Positions 27,857-35,471 of a stretch of 64,000 nucleotides of DNA are shown here, piece after piece (the first letter of the stretch is position 1; each line of letters opens with the position of its first letter). The position numbers and the translations under genes were made by a program. Origin of the DNA: an uncultured Flavobacteriales bacterium (GTDB taxonomy: Bacteria > Bacteroidota > Bacteroidia > Flavobacteriales_D > Sanyastnellaceae). Below the pieces are notes generated by a model. That model was not told where the DNA came from, ran no database searches, and saw nothing but the letters and a program-made list of their open reading frames with translations. Location of the stretch: NCBI GenBank assembly GCA_905479115.1, contig CAJQLF010000026.1, forward strand, positions 1 through 64,000, in the 5' to 3' direction.

Positions 27857-29248
27857 ATGGAAACGTCTACGAATCCAACCCCTTGGAGGCGCGTTCTTGC
27901 GATTCTCCGCCCTTTGATAATTGATCGCATGAAAATCCGTGATCTTGCGGATGCAACGGCGACCATTGAGGGAATTAAGAAAGACATTGAATTTCGTGGT
28001 TTTAACGTATGGATTCTGGTTTTTTCTATCGTCATTGCCAGCATTGGTTTGAACGTAGATTCGACGGCGGTAGTGATCGGTGCCATGTTGATTTCGCCTC
28101 TGATGGGCCCCATCATGGGGTTTGGCTTGGGCATTGGAATCAACGATGCAGGCACAGTACGGAAGTCGCTCGTGAACACCGGTGTTGCCGCAGGAATCGC
28201 TATTTTATCTTCGGCACTGTACTTCTTGATTTCACCCATCGATGAAGCGGGAAGCGAGCTGTTTGCCCGGACGAATCCCACATTTTTGGATGTTTTGGTC
28301 GCCTTGTTTGGGGGCTTGACGGGTATCCTGGCGGGATCGCGAAAAGAGAAAAGCAATGTAATTCCGGGTGTAGCGATCGCGACTGCGCTGATGCCACCTC
28401 TGTGCACGGCGGGCTTTGGATTGGCAAATGGGGAATGGGAATACTTTTTTGGCGCGTTTTATCTGTTTTTGATCAATGCCATATTGATTGCAACGGCGAC
28501 GACCTTGGTCGTGCGTTACTTGAATTTTCCCAAGGCAACCCAAGTTGATCCTGAACGAGAACGCAGATACAAGCGGTATTTTGGAATTGCACTTTTGGCA
28601 TTGATTATTCCTTCGGGTTGGATCTTTTACAAAACGGTGAGCGAAACAGTCGACACAACTCGAATTAAGAATTTTGTTGAAGAATATGCCAAATACCCGG
28701 GTACGGAAGTGGTGAAGTCAGATATCATCTGGACGAACGGGTCACCCCATGTGCATGTGGTTTTATTGGGGGAGTTTGTTCCTGAATCGTTGGTTGCTCA
28801 ATGGAAGGAAGGCCTAGAACAGGAGGTAAGCAACGCGGTGTTATATGTTGTGCAAAACACAAAAGACATTGACGGCCTGGAGGAAATGACGCGCTTGATT
28901 GATTTATACAGTGATGGCAGGGCGACACTGGCCGCTCGCGACGCGGAGATCGCTCAATTGCGTGGAGAATTAGAGAGCGTTTCGAATCGGTTGGCTACGA
29001 TGGAATTGCCTGGGACGCTTGGAGCTGAAATTCAACTCCAGCATTCGGCGGTCATTGGTGCTCGGATGGGCATGATTCAATCAACAAGGGCCGAATCTGC
29101 GCTGCCCCAAGTGGAAGTGCTTTGGATGCCACCCGATGATTCTGTCGATTGGAGCGCAGTTGATCAGGCTCGAATCGACGCTTGGCTGCGTGTCCGTTTG
29201 GCCAATGAAGCAGCGGAAGTGAATCACATCGTTGTGGCTCCTCTATAA
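27857..29248 (+). CDS. DUF389 family membrane protein
   Basis: A 463-residue integral membrane protein of the DUF389/TIGR00341 type, function unknown. After a cytoplasmic start comes the conserved region DSTAVVIGAMLISPLMGPIMG and then further hydrophobic helices with IAILSSALYFLISP, VALFGGLTGILAGSRKE, NVIPGVAIATALMPPLCTAGFGLA and FGIALLALIIPSGWIFY, about six segments in total. The last 200 residues are soluble, with a coiled-coil stretch near residues 345-385 (AARDAEIAQLRGELESV). The stop overlaps, by six bases, the 3' end of the nitric oxide synthase gene on the other strand. TACTTTCT, one base off the promoter box, lies five bases before the ATG. Confidence 0.88.
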   Translation: METSTNPTPWRRVLAILRPLIIDRMKIRDLADATATIEGIKKDIEFRGFNVWILVFSIVIASIGLNVDSTAVVIGAMLISPLMGPIMGFGLGIGINDAGTVRKSLVNTGVAAGIAILSSALYFLISPIDEAGSELFARTNPTFLDVLVALFGGLTGILAGSRKEKSNVIPGVAIATALMPPLCTAGFGLANGEWEYFFGAFYLFLINAILIATATTLVVRYLNFPKATQVDPERERRYKRYFGIALLALIIPSGWIFYKTVSETVDTTRIKNFVEEYAKYPGTEVVKSDIIWTNGSPHVHVVLLGEFVPESLVAQWKEGLEQEVSNAVLYVVQNTKDIDGLEEMTRLIDLYSDGRATLAARDAEIAQLRGELESVSNRLATMELPGTLGAEIQLQHSAVIGARMGMIQSTRAESALPQVEVLWMPPDDSVDWSAVDQARIDAWLRVRLANEAAEVNHIVVAPL

Positions 29249-30421
29249 ATGGAATGGGCAGCCGCTGGAGGGCTTGGCTTCTTTCCAAATCGGAGCTTGG
29301 TAAAAGAAATTGGTATGTGGACAGACGTCGTTGGTGTAATCCCGGTGAAATTGCGGCGTTTGTGATGCCGAGATCGGGGGATTCAACCAACTCCAGTCTC
29401 CTTTTATTTCGCGATTTTGACTCTGCTCGTGAGCGCAAAACGCCTCAAACTGAGTCCCTAAATTGTGGTGGTCTCCAATGGTGATTCCAGCTTGATCAAA
29501 ACTAAACAAGACCGCTCGGTTCAGCTCAACAAGTGACCGATCGCGCCAAAGTGATCGGTTCGAAGACGTATCCCATCCCCAGCATTTTGCAACGTCAGGA
29601 AGGAAGTTGTAGCGGGTCTCATCGGCTAAATTGCGCGCACCGATTTCCGTGCCCATGTAGTACCCATTGAAGGGTGCAAAAGGATAGACGACTCCTCCAA
29701 TTTTGAGAGCCATGTCGGCGAGAAGTGGAAGGGCGTACCACTTCAATCCGAGTTCGTTGAAGGCTTCGTTTTCCGGGTGCACCAAGGTCACTTCATTTAG
29801 GAGTTCAGGACGTTCGGTAAAAACATCTTGCGGTGGACTGGGTCGTTCGTTCCAATAAAACTGCCAGGGCAACGGGGTGAATGGGTCCTGTGTTTTTGGT
29901 TTCCAACCTGCCTGCATGAAATGCGCGGTTTGTTCGACGGAATGCGGGTCTCCGGTGGTGCCGGTACCGGTTTGAAAGCCAGCGTAGCGAATTAATTGGT
30001 GATTGGCCATCCGAACCGGGTCAGATTTCCCGGGCGTTCGAGGCGCGAAAACGCTGACAATGCTTTTGATTTTACCTCCGCGAAAGGCATCGTTTATATG
30101 AGATTGTAAAGCGTTCGATGTTGCTGATTCGCGCTCAGGGAGCTGATGCAGGGATCGCTGGTCCCGCACTTCTAGCGAGCGCCAGAGATGGCGACCAATG
30201 CAGCGGTTGCTATTTTTCCAGGCGAGGCGAGCGCCGAATTCCAACTCTTCGAATCGATGGGTATAGGTCCCCGTTGCGTCCAATTCAAGGGCGATTTCTC
30301 GCAAACGTGCTTGCACTGTTTCTGAACTGGGCGGGCGGACTTCGGGATGGGCAACCCATTCATCAAAAAAGGCGCGTGCCTCGCTGAGTACATCGGATTG
30401 ACTTGCGGCAGGGTGTGTCAT
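29243..30421 (-). CDS. nos: bacterial nitric oxide synthase oxygenase
   Basis: Oxidises L-arginine to citrulline and nitric oxide at a heme-thiolate site, with electrons from an unlinked reductase. The 392-residue cytoplasmic protein has the NOS oxygenase fingerprint: heme-ligand Cys74 in WKNSNRCIGR, RYAGFQ, WQFYWNERP, the arginine-binding Glu259 in NGYYMGTEIGARN, LWRDRSLVELNRAVLFSF, ITIGDHH, and the pterin-site GDWSWLNPPIS (W-x-W) followed by the conserved FHRDY. The bacterial form lacks the mammalian N-terminal zinc hook and flavin reductase, as here. The residue usually Trp in N-G-W-Y-M-G-T-E is Tyr. No reductase, pterin-synthesis or NO-response gene is adjacent. It is separate from the helicase gene by 62 bases. 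Confidence 0.93.
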   Translation of the reverse strand: MTHPAASQSDVLSEARAFFDEWVAHPEVRPPSSETVQARLREIALELDATGTYTHRFEELEFGARLAWKNSNRCIGRHLWRSLEVRDQRSLHQLPERESATSNALQSHINDAFRGGKIKSIVSVFAPRTPGKSDPVRMANHQLIRYAGFQTGTGTTGDPHSVEQTAHFMQAGWKPKTQDPFTPLPWQFYWNERPSPPQDVFTERPELLNEVTLVHPENEAFNELGLKWYALPLLADMALKIGGVVYPFAPFNGYYMGTEIGARNLADETRYNFLPDVAKCWGWDTSSNRSLWRDRSLVELNRAVLFSFDQAGITIGDHHNLGTQFEAFCAHEQSQNREIKGDWSWLNPPISASQTPQFHRDYTNDVCPHTNFFYQAPIWKEAKPSSGCPFHL

Positions 30422-30483: not shown

Positions 30484-31860
30484 TTATGGCCGCCCTCCTC
30501 CGTTGTTGCGTTTTTTGGATGGTTTCTTGTGTCGGTTTCCACCGAAGGACGATCCGTCTCCGCTGCCTCCGCTTCCACTTCCTCCACCCGGTTTGTAGCG
30601 TTTGTTGAACGGTTTTTTCTTCCGGCCTGGCTTCTTCTTCGCAGTGCGATCTCCACCTTCTTGGCTTCTTCGGTTCCCCTGTCCAGTTCCGCGGCCTCGG
30701 TCCAGTTCGATTTCCTCTAATCCATTATGCCATGGCTGGTCTGTCATGACCGGAACCTTCCGATCCATCAGCCGCTGAATATCCGCCATATGCTTGCGCT
30801 CATCGTCTTCATTGACCAATGACCATGCAACGCCAGAAGCTCCCGCCCGCCCGGTTCGTCCAATGCGGTGCACATAGGTTTCTGAGATGTTGGGGATTTC
30901 GTAGTTGATGACATGGCTCACACCGCTGACATCGATGCCTCGTGCGGCAATATCAGTGGCAACTAAGACATTCAATTTGCCACTTTTGAACGCTTTCATA
31001 GCGCGCTCTCTCTGAGGCTGGGTTTTGTTCCCATGGATGGCCTCAGCCTTGATTTTACTGCGATTTAGGAATCGAACTACTTTGTCAGCACCGTATTTGG
31101 TTCGGGTGAAAACCAGCGCTGTTTCGACTTCCTCCTGCTTTAGCAAATGGACCAATAAATCGCGTTTATCGCCTTGATTGACAAACAACAAGCTTTGATC
31201 AACGGTCTCGGCTGCGGTGCTTTCAGGCGCCACTTCTACCCGCTCAGGGTCGCGCAGCATGGTGCTGGCAAATTCCAATATATTGGGCGGCATGGTTGCC
31301 GAGAAAAACAGTGATTGCCGATCGCGCGGAAGGTGCTTGATGATGCGTCGCAGGTCATGAATGAAGCCCATGTCCATCATGGTATCGGCCTCGTCAAGGA
31401 CGAAATACTGCAGGTGGTTGAGGTTGACAAACCCTTGCTCTTGTAGATCGAGCAGTCGTCCAGGGGTAGCGACGACAATGTCCACACCACGGCGCAGCTT
31501 TTGAACTTGTCCGTGCTGACTCACACCACCGAACAGGGTCACGGAGAATAGCTTCACGTGTTTTGTGTAGCCGATGATGTTTTCTTCAATTTGCGCCGCT
31601 AATTCTCGGGTGGGCGTCAGGATCAAGCCCCGAATGGGTCGTTGCTGGCCGGAATACCTTTCGAGGTGCAACCGGTTGATCATAGGCAGGCTAAACGCTG
31701 CGGTCTTGCCGGTACCCGTTTGCGCAACGCCGAGCACGTCTTGGCCGGCGAGAACTTTAGGAATAGCTTGGGCTTGTATGGGGGTTGGGGTTTCGTAACC
31801 CAACTCTTGGGTGGCCTGCAGAACCTGTTCGCAAAGGCCTAAATCGTCAAATGAACTCAA
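30484..31860 (-). CDS. DEAD-box RNA helicase (RhlE-like), TTG start
   Basis: An ATP-dependent RNA helicase of 458 residues for ribosome assembly or RNA turnover, probably cytoplasmic. The motif series is complete: Q motif GYETPTPIQ, Walker A AQTGTGKT, PTRELAAQ, TPGRLLD, DEAD, SAT, ARGIDVSGV and HRIGRTGRAG. The C-terminal about 75 residues are Lys/Arg/Gly-rich and disordered (runs such as KKKPGRKKKPFNKRYK), as in RhlE-type enzymes. The only plausible start in frame before the Q motif is TTG at 31860 (then SSFDDLG); readings further upstream have no ATG and enter CotH-gene coding sequence. It follows the CotH gene by 89 bases. Confidence 0.93.
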   Translation of the reverse strand: MSSFDDLGLCEQVLQATQELGYETPTPIQAQAIPKVLAGQDVLGVAQTGTGKTAAFSLPMINRLHLERYSGQQRPIRGLILTPTRELAAQIEENIIGYTKHVKLFSVTLFGGVSQHGQVQKLRRGVDIVVATPGRLLDLQEQGFVNLNHLQYFVLDEADTMMDMGFIHDLRRIIKHLPRDRQSLFFSATMPPNILEFASTMLRDPERVEVAPESTAAETVDQSLLFVNQGDKRDLLVHLLKQEEVETALVFTRTKYGADKVVRFLNRSKIKAEAIHGNKTQPQRERAMKAFKSGKLNVLVATDIAARGIDVSGVSHVINYEIPNISETYVHRIGRTGRAGASGVAWSLVNEDDERKHMADIQRLMDRKVPVMTDQPWHNGLEEIELDRGRGTGQGNRRSQEGGDRTAKKKPGRKKKPFNKRYKPGGGSGSGGSGDGSSFGGNRHKKPSKKRNNGGGRP

Positions 31861-31949
31861 ATAAATAAAAATCGCGGGCGGGGCTGATTCGCTCGACCCG
31901 TGCTGCAAAGGTCGGTGATAAGCGTGGTGATTTGACCACTTTGTGCGGA

Positions 31950-33494
31950 TTATTCCTTGACAAATCGTTGTGAACGGAGGCTTGACTCCCCCTGAATCAC
32001 AGCGAAATAGACGCCGACAGGCCACGCTGAAACGTCCAATTGGACCGTTCCAGTGATGCTACGTTGTTCCCATGCGAGTTGTCCGGTTGCACTAAATATC
32101 TGAATTGATTTGTCGGAAGGGTTAGCGCCGAATTCCAAGAACAGTAGGTTACTGACAGGATTGGGATACAGCATCAAAGCAGCGGATTCAACCAGCGGCA
32201 CTTGGACCGCAGAGCAATCCAATTGCGTGTCTAAAAACGCTGTACGATCGGCGACAAACGGCTTCAACCCGTAGAGCGATCCTCCTGGTCCGCCACCTCC
32301 GCCGGGACCACCTCCTCCCAAGTCGCTGTCAAAATTGGCATTGAAATCTGCATTCGAGTACATCTTGTTGTCGTCGTCGGTTACAGAAGCTTGAATTAAA
32401 GCCTTCAGTGCGTCAAGGCGAGGTTCGAGGTAGTCGGAATTGAAGTAGGCCTCACGCAAGGCGCACAATTCCGCATCGTAGGCTCCGCGTAAAGCTTCAT
32501 TCGCCAGCATGCGCTGCAGCAGAGGCCGGTCAAAGTTGCCACCGTCAAACCCGAGGTCCAATTCCGTCATGGAACCGGGCACGCCCATGGCGTAACTCCC
32601 GAATGTCTCGTTGCAATCCCACTTGATCCACTGCCAAAGGCCGAGCGTGGTGTTTTGATAGAGGTAGTAATTGCGAGCGGACAGCGTATAGCTGTCGAGG
32701 TTTGCGAAGAGGTTGTCGAGCGCCGCCGAGCGGAGGTAGGGTTGCAGGTCGAGGTGCGTGCCAATCAGCGACTCGAAATCCGCATCTGATGCGTTATTGA
32801 TGAATTCGATAAATTCGATGAAGTCAGACCAATCTCCGAGGTCGTTCATCTTCAATTCGTAGGCATCGCCATAATCCGCTTGGCTGGGGCCTTGGTAGAC
32901 GAGGCTCGCCTCATCGCTGCCCTGGCCGAAGTTGGATCCTGCCTTGAAGAGCATGCCGTCGTCGTTGCCGATGCTGCGGTCGAGGAATTGATCATCGATT
33001 TGCTCCACGACGGTATAAAACCCCCACGGTTCACCGTTGAAGGTGACTTCAGCGAAATTGGCCCGTGGTGCGAGAATCCCCGCCTCTGCGCACACATCGT
33101 AGAAAATCTTTTCGCGCACGAACGTGGGGTCCTTGAAGCCGTTGTTGAAGTTGAGCTTTTTGAGCAAGTCGTACGCTTGTCCCGAAATGAAACGGTTGAA
33201 ATCCACCTTGAACGGCTTTTTTTCGCCGGGGTGGTTCATGCTTGAATTTCCTTTCAATCGAATCCCGACCGAGTCCAACTGGGCTACGCCGTCGAGGCTG
33301 GTGATGGTGATGCCTGCGGGGATGTAATTCTGCTCACCTTCGTACTCGGTCAATAATTCATTCCAGAATCCATCACTGTAGAAGGCGACGTCGACCTGAA
33401 GTATTTGATCGGTGCCGAAGACGTTATCGCCTTCGGTTTGGGCAAGTACAGCGGTAGATATTAGTACCGGTGCGACGAAAAGTAGGGAGCGCAT
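31950..33494 (-). CDS. CotH kinase-like secreted protein with T9SS sorting domain
   Basis: A 514-residue exported protein: signal peptide, a CotH-family domain (about residues 30-380), a Gly/Pro-rich hinge (GGGGPGGGGGPGG) and a T9SS type A sorting domain (from about LYPNPVSNLLFLEF). CotH proteins in spores are atypical kinases; here the matching pieces are GIRLKGNSSM, KKPFKVDFNR, VEQIDDQFLDRS and KWDCNETFG near residue 290, which takes the place of the usual W-D-x-D metal-binding motif. Whether it phosphorylates a surface protein is unknown. A possible promoter and a strong inverted repeat lie upstream (33542-33694). Confidence 0.85.
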   Translation of the reverse strand: MRSLLFVAPVLISTAVLAQTEGDNVFGTDQILQVDVAFYSDGFWNELLTEYEGEQNYIPAGITITSLDGVAQLDSVGIRLKGNSSMNHPGEKKPFKVDFNRFISGQAYDLLKKLNFNNGFKDPTFVREKIFYDVCAEAGILAPRANFAEVTFNGEPWGFYTVVEQIDDQFLDRSIGNDDGMLFKAGSNFGQGSDEASLVYQGPSQADYGDAYELKMNDLGDWSDFIEFIEFINNASDADFESLIGTHLDLQPYLRSAALDNLFANLDSYTLSARNYYLYQNTTLGLWQWIKWDCNETFGSYAMGVPGSMTELDLGFDGGNFDRPLLQRMLANEALRGAYDAELCALREAYFNSDYLEPRLDALKALIQASVTDDDNKMYSNADFNANFDSDLGGGGPGGGGGPGGSLYGLKPFVADRTAFLDTQLDCSAVQVPLVESAALMLYPNPVSNLLFLEFGANPSDKSIQIFSATGQLAWEQRSITGTVQLDVSAWPVGVYFAVIQGESSLRSQRFVKE

Positions 33495-33704: not shown

Positions 33705-34928
33705 TCATTTCCAGAGCCCTGTCATGACGTGCGGCTCGGGGTTCGGGTTGGTCCAACCGAGCATGGCGCCCTTTCGCAATCCCACCAATGCAGGAAAGCC
33801 ACCCGCTCGCCGCTCGCTCGCCGCGACGAGTACTTCCGGCTCTTCAGTGAAGGGCTCGCCGGCTGCATTCCACCGCATACCGACCCAATCGACTCCCCCG
33901 GTTTCGTTTGTTTGCAGCCAAACGGCATAAAGTTGCCCCGCCTCATCTGACGCGGTTGAGATGCGCCCAAGCGGGGTGTTTGTGTGCAGTGCGCGGGGAT
34001 TGCCGAATCCCGATTCATCGTGATTGCGCCAAGCGGACAACACCTGGGGCTGGTCTCCAGCTGCGGTGTACCAAACGGCGAGAACGCGCTCGTCGTTCGC
34101 CGCCAAAGAGGCTCCGTTCACCGGACACGCCGCGATTTGCCACCCGTCGTCGTGCAGCGGTCCGCTCGCCTCGTACGATCCTCCAGCCGCATCGATGTTC
34201 ATGCGGCTGAAATCGCGAATTTCATCGGCAGTGCGATCACGGTAGATGAGTTCATAGGTGCCAGTTGACGTTTGTGCTGCTGTCATCGGACAGCATGTGC
34301 ACACGGAGGAATCGAGCACGGCCTCCTTCTCCCATTTCTCTTGAGCGGGCCAATTGTTCATGCGCAGCTCCATGCGGGCTTGGGATGGGTCAGGGTGGCC
34401 ATCGAAGTCGCGCCCGTCGAGCCAAACCAATTGCGCGCCATCCCGGTAAGGGAGCCACTGCGCAAATCCGTGCTCTGCGATCGCTGTGTCCTGGTGAGGA
34501 CGTGCGGGAGCGGACCAAGTGCCACCGCCATCAGTACTTCGCACGGCAGCTATGCCGTAAGCAAAGTCACCGCGTGGATCGACCGTAAGCCAATGAGCAT
34601 ACGCCGCACCATTCGACCCAAATACCATCTGAGGGCGGTCTGCCCAATTGATGAGCATCGCAGGGTCCGATGCAATGGAGCGATGATCTTGCCATTCACC
34701 GTCTTGCCAGCGGGCCCATTGAAGCGTGGGGTTGGAGTCCATGGACTGAACATAGAGCAATGCGGGGAGGCCTTCTGCATCGGCAAGCAACTGAGGCACG
34801 TGCGTTTGAGAGGGCAGCGATTGAACCGAATGCAAGGGAGTGTCATCCTCTGTGCAACCCGCAATTAGCAGGGCAATGAAGGCTATACCACAATTAAACC
34901 AACTCACCTTCCAGGACACGGCTTTCAT
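33705..34928 (-). CDS. sialidase-fold lipoprotein with a CTCC cysteine cluster
   Basis: A 407-residue predicted lipoprotein (lipobox LLIAGCTED) with sialidase/BNR-like beta-propeller character: strands on a QW/LW theme, one clear Asp box (STDGGGTWSAP) and weaker copies. Two cysteine-bearing elements stand out: VCTCCPMTAAQTS near the middle and, later, WQIAACPVNGASL, possibly building a metal or disulfide site. Catalytic Arg residues of true sialidases are not evident, so enzyme activity should not be assumed. I chose MKAVSWK at 34928 as start because longer readings put extra residues before the signal peptide. It overlaps the previous gene by 35 bases. Confidence 0.75.
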   Translation of the reverse strand: MKAVSWKVSWFNCGIAFIALLIAGCTEDDTPLHSVQSLPSQTHVPQLLADAEGLPALLYVQSMDSNPTLQWARWQDGEWQDHRSIASDPAMLINWADRPQMVFGSNGAAYAHWLTVDPRGDFAYGIAAVRSTDGGGTWSAPARPHQDTAIAEHGFAQWLPYRDGAQLVWLDGRDFDGHPDPSQARMELRMNNWPAQEKWEKEAVLDSSVCTCCPMTAAQTSTGTYELIYRDRTADEIRDFSRMNIDAAGGSYEASGPLHDDGWQIAACPVNGASLAANDERVLAVWYTAAGDQPQVLSAWRNHDESGFGNPRALHTNTPLGRISTASDEAGQLYAVWLQTNETGGVDWVGMRWNAAGEPFTEEPEVLVAASERRAGGFPALVGLRKGAMLGWTNPNPEPHVMTGLWK

Positions 34929-35307
34929 CGTATTCGGAGCCTCCAAAAGCCAAAATTGACATGAATATGAAGCCCAAAAAGACGAGTCCGACACCGAAAG
35001 CGGATGGCTTTCCGAATAGCTTGGCCAATCGGAGGCTGTCAATTACGCTGACGAACAAGACCCCAATGTAGCCGATAACCGGAATGGCACTAGCGAAGTA
35101 CAGCAGCATCCACCAACCCGGGCGTTTCAGAATTTGGGTGTAAACGTAGAGATTGTAGAATGGAATGAGGATGGCCCAACCGGGTTGGCCGGCTTTTGTG
35201 AAGACGCGCCACATCGCAATGATCGCGATGAGGATAAAGGGCACGAAAAACATCAGGGAGGCCATGGCGAAGGCGATCAAGGTATCCATTGTGAAAAAGC
35301 TCTCCAT
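34894..35307 (-). CDS. small membrane protein, DUF5684-like
   Basis: A 137-residue integral membrane protein with four hydrophobic segments. The conserved piece after the first helix (KAGQPGWAILIPFYNLYVYTQILKRPGWW) is typical of the DUF5684-type small proteins of Bacteroidota, sometimes annotated as signal peptidase-related although no catalytic Ser/Lys pair is present here. Two in-frame ATGs (35307 and 35289) both follow the same repeated stretch, an 18-base tandem duplication; either could be the start. It overlaps the downstream lipoprotein gene by 35 bases. Function unknown. Confidence 0.72.
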   Translation of the reverse strand: MESFFTMDTLIAFAMASLMFFVPFILIAIIAMWRVFTKAGQPGWAILIPFYNLYVYTQILKRPGWWMLLYFASAIPVIGYIGVLFVSVIDSLRLAKLFGKPSAFGVGLVFLGFIFMSILAFGGSEYDESRVLEGELV

Positions 35308-35392: not shown

Positions 35393-35400
35393 GTTCGTTG

Positions 35401-35471
35401 AGGTCCGAAGCGGATTCGAACCGCTGTAGCAGCTTTTGCAGAGCTGAGCCTAGCCACTCGGCCATCGGACC
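35401..35471 (-). tRNA. tRNA-Cys (GCA anticodon)
   Basis: Read on the minus strand the sequence folds as a 71-base cloverleaf. The acceptor stem GGTCCGA pairs with TCGGACC, the anticodon arm is CAGCT-CTGCAAA-AGCTG with anticodon GCA in the loop, and the T arm is GCGGT-TCGAATC-CGCT-like. The D arm (GCCGAGTGGCTAGGC) is short, as in Cys tRNAs. The discriminator base is T and CCA is not encoded. It is transcribed toward the small membrane protein gene and followed by a strong hairpin. Confidence 0.93.

Follow-up and report, generated by a model that had tools for sequence, protein, structure and literature searches.

Nearly all work on bacterial nitric oxide synthase (NOS) has concerned Gram-positive species, and the reductant of the enzyme is a long-standing question. 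In Sorangium cellulosum, the enzyme carries a fused 2Fe2S-FAD-NAD module in one polypeptide (PMC3701330), and one NOS from the Bacteroidota, that of Spirosoma linguale, has been described before (PMC6104048); our literature searches returned nothing specific to NOS of marine bacteria or Flavobacteriales. Here we describe a NOS oxygenase gene located in a 64-kb stretch of DNA from an uncultured Flavobacteriales bacterium. This stretch, which we call the window, belongs to contig C26, and coordinates given without a locus name are those of the window. The gene encodes a lineage-specific variant of a known family, and we consider it, with a probability of about 0.8, to be a genuine stand-alone (type I) bacterial NOS oxygenase that has been inherited vertically. 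Such a gene suggests production of nitric oxide (NO) in marine Bacteroidota.

The NOS gene and its distribution

The gene was delimited from its open reading frame and translation, a match to the Pfam family PF02898 and an AlphaFold model.

29243..30421, minus strand: NOS oxygenase gene, 392 amino acids plus stop, ATG start

A preliminary description, made from the sequence alone, gave the coordinates exactly but not the strand, and claimed a full, unfused NOS oxygenase. The profile search that it proposed supports both parts of this claim: PF02898 (NO_synthase) matches residues 8-380 over positions 2-362 of the 362-position profile with 405.3 bits (E 2.9e-121, cut-off 22.7), a score far beyond chance, and it is the only domain found in the protein, with no fused reductase, calmodulin-binding or globin domain. 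In a search of NCBIfam, no NOS model matched at 1e-3. The AlphaFold model, which was built from an alignment of 35 Bacteroidota NOS sequences (alignment A2), has a predicted local distance difference test score (pLDDT) of 91.5 and a predicted template modelling score (pTM) of 0.90, and it superposes on B. subtilis NOS (4lwa) with a Z score of 45.5 and a root-mean-square deviation of 1.5 A over 361 aligned residues. By sequence, the closest solved relatives are the Geobacillus and Bacillus enzymes, at 42-45% identity.

The host genome (2.27 Mb, 99.5% complete) contains a single NOS copy. Within the host family, NOS is found in 39 of 114 genomes and is limited to three genera, with 18/22 genomes in the window genus and 9/11 and 12/17 in the other two; none of the listed family matches has an internal stop codon. 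The named close relatives are Flavobacteriales metagenome-assembled genomes, one of them labelled Crocinitomicaceae, and their isolate names indicate that the NOS-bearing group is marine. More widely, NOS occurs in 45 of 399 genomes of the order and in 12 of 395 genomes of a phylum-wide Bacteroidota sample. The gene is thus patchy but not rare in Bacteroidota, and together with the Spirosoma enzyme these counts remove the exceptional status that the preliminary description had given it. Viral contigs yielded no NOS.

A tree of 57 NOS sequences (32 from the host family and 25 others), of the kind that the same description had suggested, places the family sequences in one clade with 100/100 support, set apart from the Firmicutes sequences on a stem branch of 0.74 changes per column. 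Each of the three genera is monophyletic (98/89, 100/100 and 99/95). Other Flavobacteriales NOS, from families f3 and f9, form a separate 100/100 clade; NOS was therefore acquired on at least two occasions within the order, with inheritance thereafter, and more than once in the phylum. The branching order among phyla at the base of the tree lacks resolution. In the history that we propose, the common ancestor of the three marine Flavobacteriales genera would have acquired NOS once, with vertical inheritance since.

Active site, gate and C-terminal tail

The residues on which the following discussion depends are encoded at these positions, invariance being that in alignment A2.

30200..30202, minus strand: codon of Cys74, the axial heme thiolate (NSNRC74IGRH), invariant
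30188..30190, minus strand: codon of His78, right after CIGR, diagnostic of the family's NOS clade (32/32 members, against 0/25 sequences outside it, where Leu, Ile or Ser stands instead)
29720..29722, minus strand: codon of Leu234, in the alignment column of the NO-release gate, where B. subtilis NOS has Ile218 and the mammalian enzymes have Val
29660..29662, minus strand: codon of Tyr254 (NGYYM), a position next to the arginine site at which Trp (NGWYM) is usual (from the alignment)
29645..29647, minus strand: codon of Glu259, the arginine-binding glutamate, invariant
29387..29395, minus strand: codons of Trp343-x-Trp345, the pterin-site motif, both Trp invariant
29246..29260, minus strand: CPFHL tail (Cys388-Leu392), a conserved Cys-Pro motif, CP[FYV] in 32/32 clade tails

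Cys74, Glu259, Trp343 and Trp345 lie where the preliminary description had placed them. Trp68, the stacking Trp six residues N-terminal to the heme Cys of the (R/K)C-x-GR motif, and Asn264 are also invariant, and Thr182 and Thr370 are further markers of the family's clade. The enzyme most likely acts as a homodimer that carries heme on Cys74 and, at Trp345, a reduced pterin that is probably tetrahydrofolate; L-arginine bound at Glu259 would be oxidised to citrulline and NO, and NO would be released slowly past the bulky Leu234 gate.

The preliminary description had also singled out the change from Trp to Tyr in NGWYM. The change is real, but it is clade variation rather than a singular oddity: column 254 is Tyr or Phe in the window genus, His in genus g18 (NGHYLGTEIAARN), Trp in genus g20, and Tyr or Phe again in families f33 and f35, and the substrate Glu is kept throughout. 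In known NOS, the Trp at this column binds the substrate guanidinium via its main-chain carbonyl. Since this contact is made by the main chain, Tyr can replace Trp, and the change is probably tolerated. In the same loop, two f35 sequences (L052 and L050) have GWYMLDE for GWYMGTE; they also have very short C-termini and form a long-branched clade of their own.

As judged from the alignment, the gate residue is the more unusual of the two. Ile at the NO-release gate has been published as present in all bacterial NOS (PMC6104048), and the window NOS, with Leu234, departs from this pattern. The column is Leu in all 21 proteins of the window genus (g1) and g18 and Ile in g20, and each of the 25 remaining sequences in the comparison has Ile or Val. 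The gate Ile is thus a usual trait of type I bacterial NOS rather than a defining one.

In the 32 clade members, the tails that follow the last conserved strand (NFFYQ) are 17-65 residues long and variable in sequence and length, and each contains exactly one Cys, always within a CP[FY] motif. When the tails are shuffled, CP[FYV] occurs in a mean of 0.38 sequences and a maximum of 4, compared with the 32 of 32 observed; because the tail sequences are related, this demonstrates constraint inside the clade and not 32 independent events. Similar motifs are found in the NOS of other groups, namely GCPFH or VCPFH in Bacteroidota families f35 and f54, GCPFK in f33, QCPFHH in S. aureus, GCPFGH in Nostoc and RCPVH in Deinococcus. 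The motif is absent from the NOS of families f3/f9, Natribaculum and the Actinomycetota examined. Model confidence drops to about 69 in the tail, and the solved S. aureus chain (1MJT) ends short of it, so that the present alignment draws attention to a conserved element missing from that construct. The known heme-regulatory motif is a Cys-Pro dipeptide within a flexible part of the protein, in some cases with a His close by (PMC10377097). Proteins with such a motif bind heme there transiently. By analogy, the tail may possibly be heme-regulatory, sensing or loading heme; redox or metal roles of the Cys stand equally.

Electron donor, cofactor and alternative readings

The host genome was searched family by family with profiles, and a negative result means that nothing was found over the threshold. 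Flavodoxin_1 (PF00258) has no match there, and none in 12 of the 14 NOS-bearing family members tested (host included). Above the threshold, the host therefore has no flavodoxin and no diflavin reductase of the CysJ kind to draw on, and a donor of either type was rejected for the host genome. Three FNR-type proteins with a NAD_binding_1 domain are present: PaaE, a protein assigned by sequence to NqrF, and an orphan reductase. A stand-alone 2Fe-2S ferredoxin is also encoded. PaaE, encoded at L121:5347-6429:+, scores 408.7 bits with its model, just below the cut-off of 420.8, and adjoins genes read as paa epoxidase components. The orphan reductase, a PaaE paralogue encoded on contig C14 (L123:4924-6027:-) between queE and a dehydrogenase E1 gene, combines FAD_binding_6, NAD_binding_1 and a C-terminal Fer2 domain. 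The scan for flavodoxins and ferredoxin reductases that the preliminary description recommended thus narrows the question of the reductant, which it had left open.

A profile for the orphan reductase (A1) was run over the 114 family genomes; in the three NOS-bearing genera, orphan proteins score at least 324 bits and the PaaE type at most 265. The orphan reductase occurs in 37 of 39 NOS-bearing genomes of these genera versus 5 of 11 NOS-lacking ones (Fisher p 0.0007, a test that ignores kinship), and the control PaaE type occurs in 37/39 and 10/11, respectively. The two NOS-bearing genomes without it are 80% and 83% complete. Such an asymmetry, in which NOS rarely occurs without the orphan reductase and the orphan sometimes occurs without NOS, is what dependence predicts, the genomes being related and the counts uncorrected for this. 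Related proteins at 296-324 bits are also found in a few NOS-lacking genera, so that an orphan homologue is not exclusive to NOS bearers. PaaE, which sits in the paa operon and does not track NOS, was rejected as a partner. Because it does track NOS, the orphan FAD/NAD/2Fe-2S reductase is the best candidate for a donor that would supply electrons in trans, rather than a flavodoxin; this is a correlation, and we put the proposal forward tentatively, at somewhat less than even odds.

For the cofactor, one GTP cyclohydrolase I gene in the host genome is consistent with a supply of tetrahydrofolate. As to the fate of NO, no H-NOX, globin or truncated globin exceeds the threshold in the host genome, and an H-NOX sensor or a globin NO dioxygenase was accordingly rejected as an NO partner. 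Published work describes two functions of bacterial NOS that would suit an aerobic marine cell, namely protection against oxidative stress and the tuning of respiration through nitrite (PMC9500659, PMC5539425), and our guess, by analogy with Gram-positive bacteria, is that one of these applies to the host.

Several observations weigh against this scheme. The orphan reductase gene is unlinked to NOS on the chromosome, it is retained by five NOS-lacking genomes, of which G068 and G093 are at least 97% complete, and the Fisher value takes no account of relatedness. The survey of FNRs covered those with a NAD_binding_1 domain, and NOS of other bacteria are reported to use non-dedicated cellular reductases (PMC3701330, PMC6104048). 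GTP cyclohydrolase I was not found in two NOS-bearing genomes of the window genus (G054 and G058), so that the pterin source may vary, and in the absence of H-NOX and globin no downstream NO pathway is visible. It is nearly an even chance that NOS has no dedicated partner at all and is fed, as in Bacillus, by any low-potential reductase or ferredoxin, such as PaaE, NqrF, the 2Fe-2S ferredoxin or a thioredoxin-reductase-type FNR. The first three of these are indeed present in the host genome, and the orphan reductase persists in five genomes without NOS; however, PaaE and NqrF have recognised roles of their own, and it is the orphan, not PaaE, that tracks NOS.

A different possibility is that the protein is a drifting or repurposed homologue that makes no NO and performs some other oxidation, for instance on a different guanidine or with nitroxyl or peroxynitrite chemistry; the change would be marked by Trp to Tyr, Phe or His at column 254, the Ile to Leu gate, His78 and an altered pterin-side helix. 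Diagnostic changes at several otherwise near-invariant positions, the long stem of 0.74 changes per column and the unusual variability of an active-site column between sister genera are in its favour. However, there is no variation at the heme Cys, at the Glu, at either Trp of the pterin site or at Asn264, g20 combines an ordinary Trp and Ile gate with the same tail in the same clade, and a main-chain contact leaves room for Tyr, which makes such repurposing quite improbable. A contaminated assembly, which the preliminary description had named as a possible refutation, or a very recent transfer of the gene out of some other phylum might be suspected from the patchiness of NOS in the phylum (12/395) and from the NOS genes of many phyla that are found on plasmids. 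We rejected this explanation, whose likelihood is negligible, because NOS is present in 39 family genomes, forms one clade that follows the genera, has the same G+C content as the window (52.3% in both), and has neighbours conserved in congeners, with Bacteroidota type IX secretion tails carried by the flanking genes; the gene is native.

The reading that we prefer is thus a native, vertically inherited type I NOS. In a bolder form, which seems to us unlikely, it would represent a distinct marine Flavobacteriales subfamily, marked by Leu at the gate, relaxation at the Trp site and a Cys-Pro tail that senses heme. A dedicated 2Fe-2S/FAD reductase would drive it in trans, making the pair a split Sorangium enzyme, and the tail would be an overlooked, widespread control element of bacterial NOS. 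If this were true, the Cys-Pro tails of Staphylococcus, Nostoc and Deinococcus NOS would be the same control element. In either form, a near-core NOS in a genome without flavodoxin, diflavin reductase, globin or H-NOX offers a clean setting for the reductant question, with one orphan candidate.

Gene neighbourhood and comparison with known NOS types

Two genes adjoin NOS in the window.

30484..32025, minus strand: RhlE-type DEAD-box RNA helicase, upstream of NOS with a 62 bp gap, start probably called too far upstream; the two genes are adjacent in 7 genomes of the genus
27857..29248, plus strand: DUF389/TIGR00341 membrane protein, convergent with NOS, 3' ends overlapping by 6 bp

The distance between helicase and NOS is 27-112 bp in the seven genomes, and the two may be co-transcribed in the window genus. 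In g18 the neighbours are RluB and a SulP transporter, and in g20 a carbonic anhydrase. Since the neighbours differ among genera, there is no operon logic and no functional clue from the neighbourhood, and a linked partner gene was rejected. Among the genes that lie within about 10 kb of NOS, we recognised none for a reductase, a pterin enzyme or an NO sensor, in line with the preliminary description. A SulP neighbour shared by three lineages was taken as chance, as the proteins are different paralogues with 24-33% identity between lineages. The g20 beta-carbonic anhydrase lies 28 bp from NOS and is divergent (L084:11043-11687:+); one that is 53% identical lies a few genes from NOS in g18, beside the SulP transporter (L078:13430-14083:-), and none is near NOS in the window. 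Two genes upstream of NOS (33705-35042, minus strand) lies the gene of a secreted BNR-propeller-like protein, in which a conserved C-x-CC motif is followed further on by a CP motif. Such proteins are also found near NOS in most g20 loci (L084:11740-13158:-, L082:7315-8724:+) and about 4 kb from a NOS fusion in genome G645 (L065:15592-16683:-); these copies are only 22-27% identical to that of the window, and the proximity could be chance. The window's only tRNA is tRNA-Cys (35400-35471, minus strand); no other Rfam family exceeds the threshold.

Two records concern the context of NOS elsewhere. In L068 (G776), a 797-residue frame joins NOS to a mechanosensitive-channel-like protein only across unread bases, and is therefore an assembly or masking gap and not a true fusion. 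In L145 (NZ_CP077935.1), a 256-kb record labelled as an S. aureus plasmid, NOS lies next to nadE, nicotinate phosphoribosyltransferase and prephenate dehydratase; the record may be a piece of chromosome.

Among the known types, the type I NOS of B. subtilis, Geobacillus stearothermophilus and S. aureus have in common with the window NOS the fold, a similar length, the heme Cys, the Glu, the pterin Trp pair and the bacterial Asn after Arg (RN), with no reductase domain in either. The window NOS differs from them in its Leu rather than Ile gate, Tyr rather than Trp before YM, His after CIGR, a longer C-terminal tail and its own 100/100 clade. The NOS of families f3 and f9 are likewise stand-alone and from the same order, but they form the separate clade described above, with Trp, an Ile gate and no Cys-Pro tail, and the two f3/f9 genomes tested have flavodoxin-domain proteins, unlike the host genome.

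The SyNOS type (globin-NOS-diflavin, in Synechococcus PCC 7335 and Spirosoma linguale) has the NOS oxygenase domain in common with the window NOS, which, unlike it, lacks globin and diflavin domains; none is found elsewhere in the host genome either. The G645 fusion (L065:6765-11345:+), from a Bacteroidota genome of 7 Mb, is a SyNOS-like globin-NOS-flavodoxin-FAD-NAD protein of 1527 residues in which a GCPFF motif precedes the globin. On a Micromonospora plasmid (L152), NOS is followed with a 1 bp overlap by a globin-domain gene, an unfused counterpart of the globin-NOS fusion. Unlike the Sorangium enzyme, the window NOS is the oxygenase alone, and the gene of its putative reductase is unlinked; if the proposed partnership is right, the two would draw electrons through a chain of the same type (2Fe-2S, FAD, NAD(P)H).
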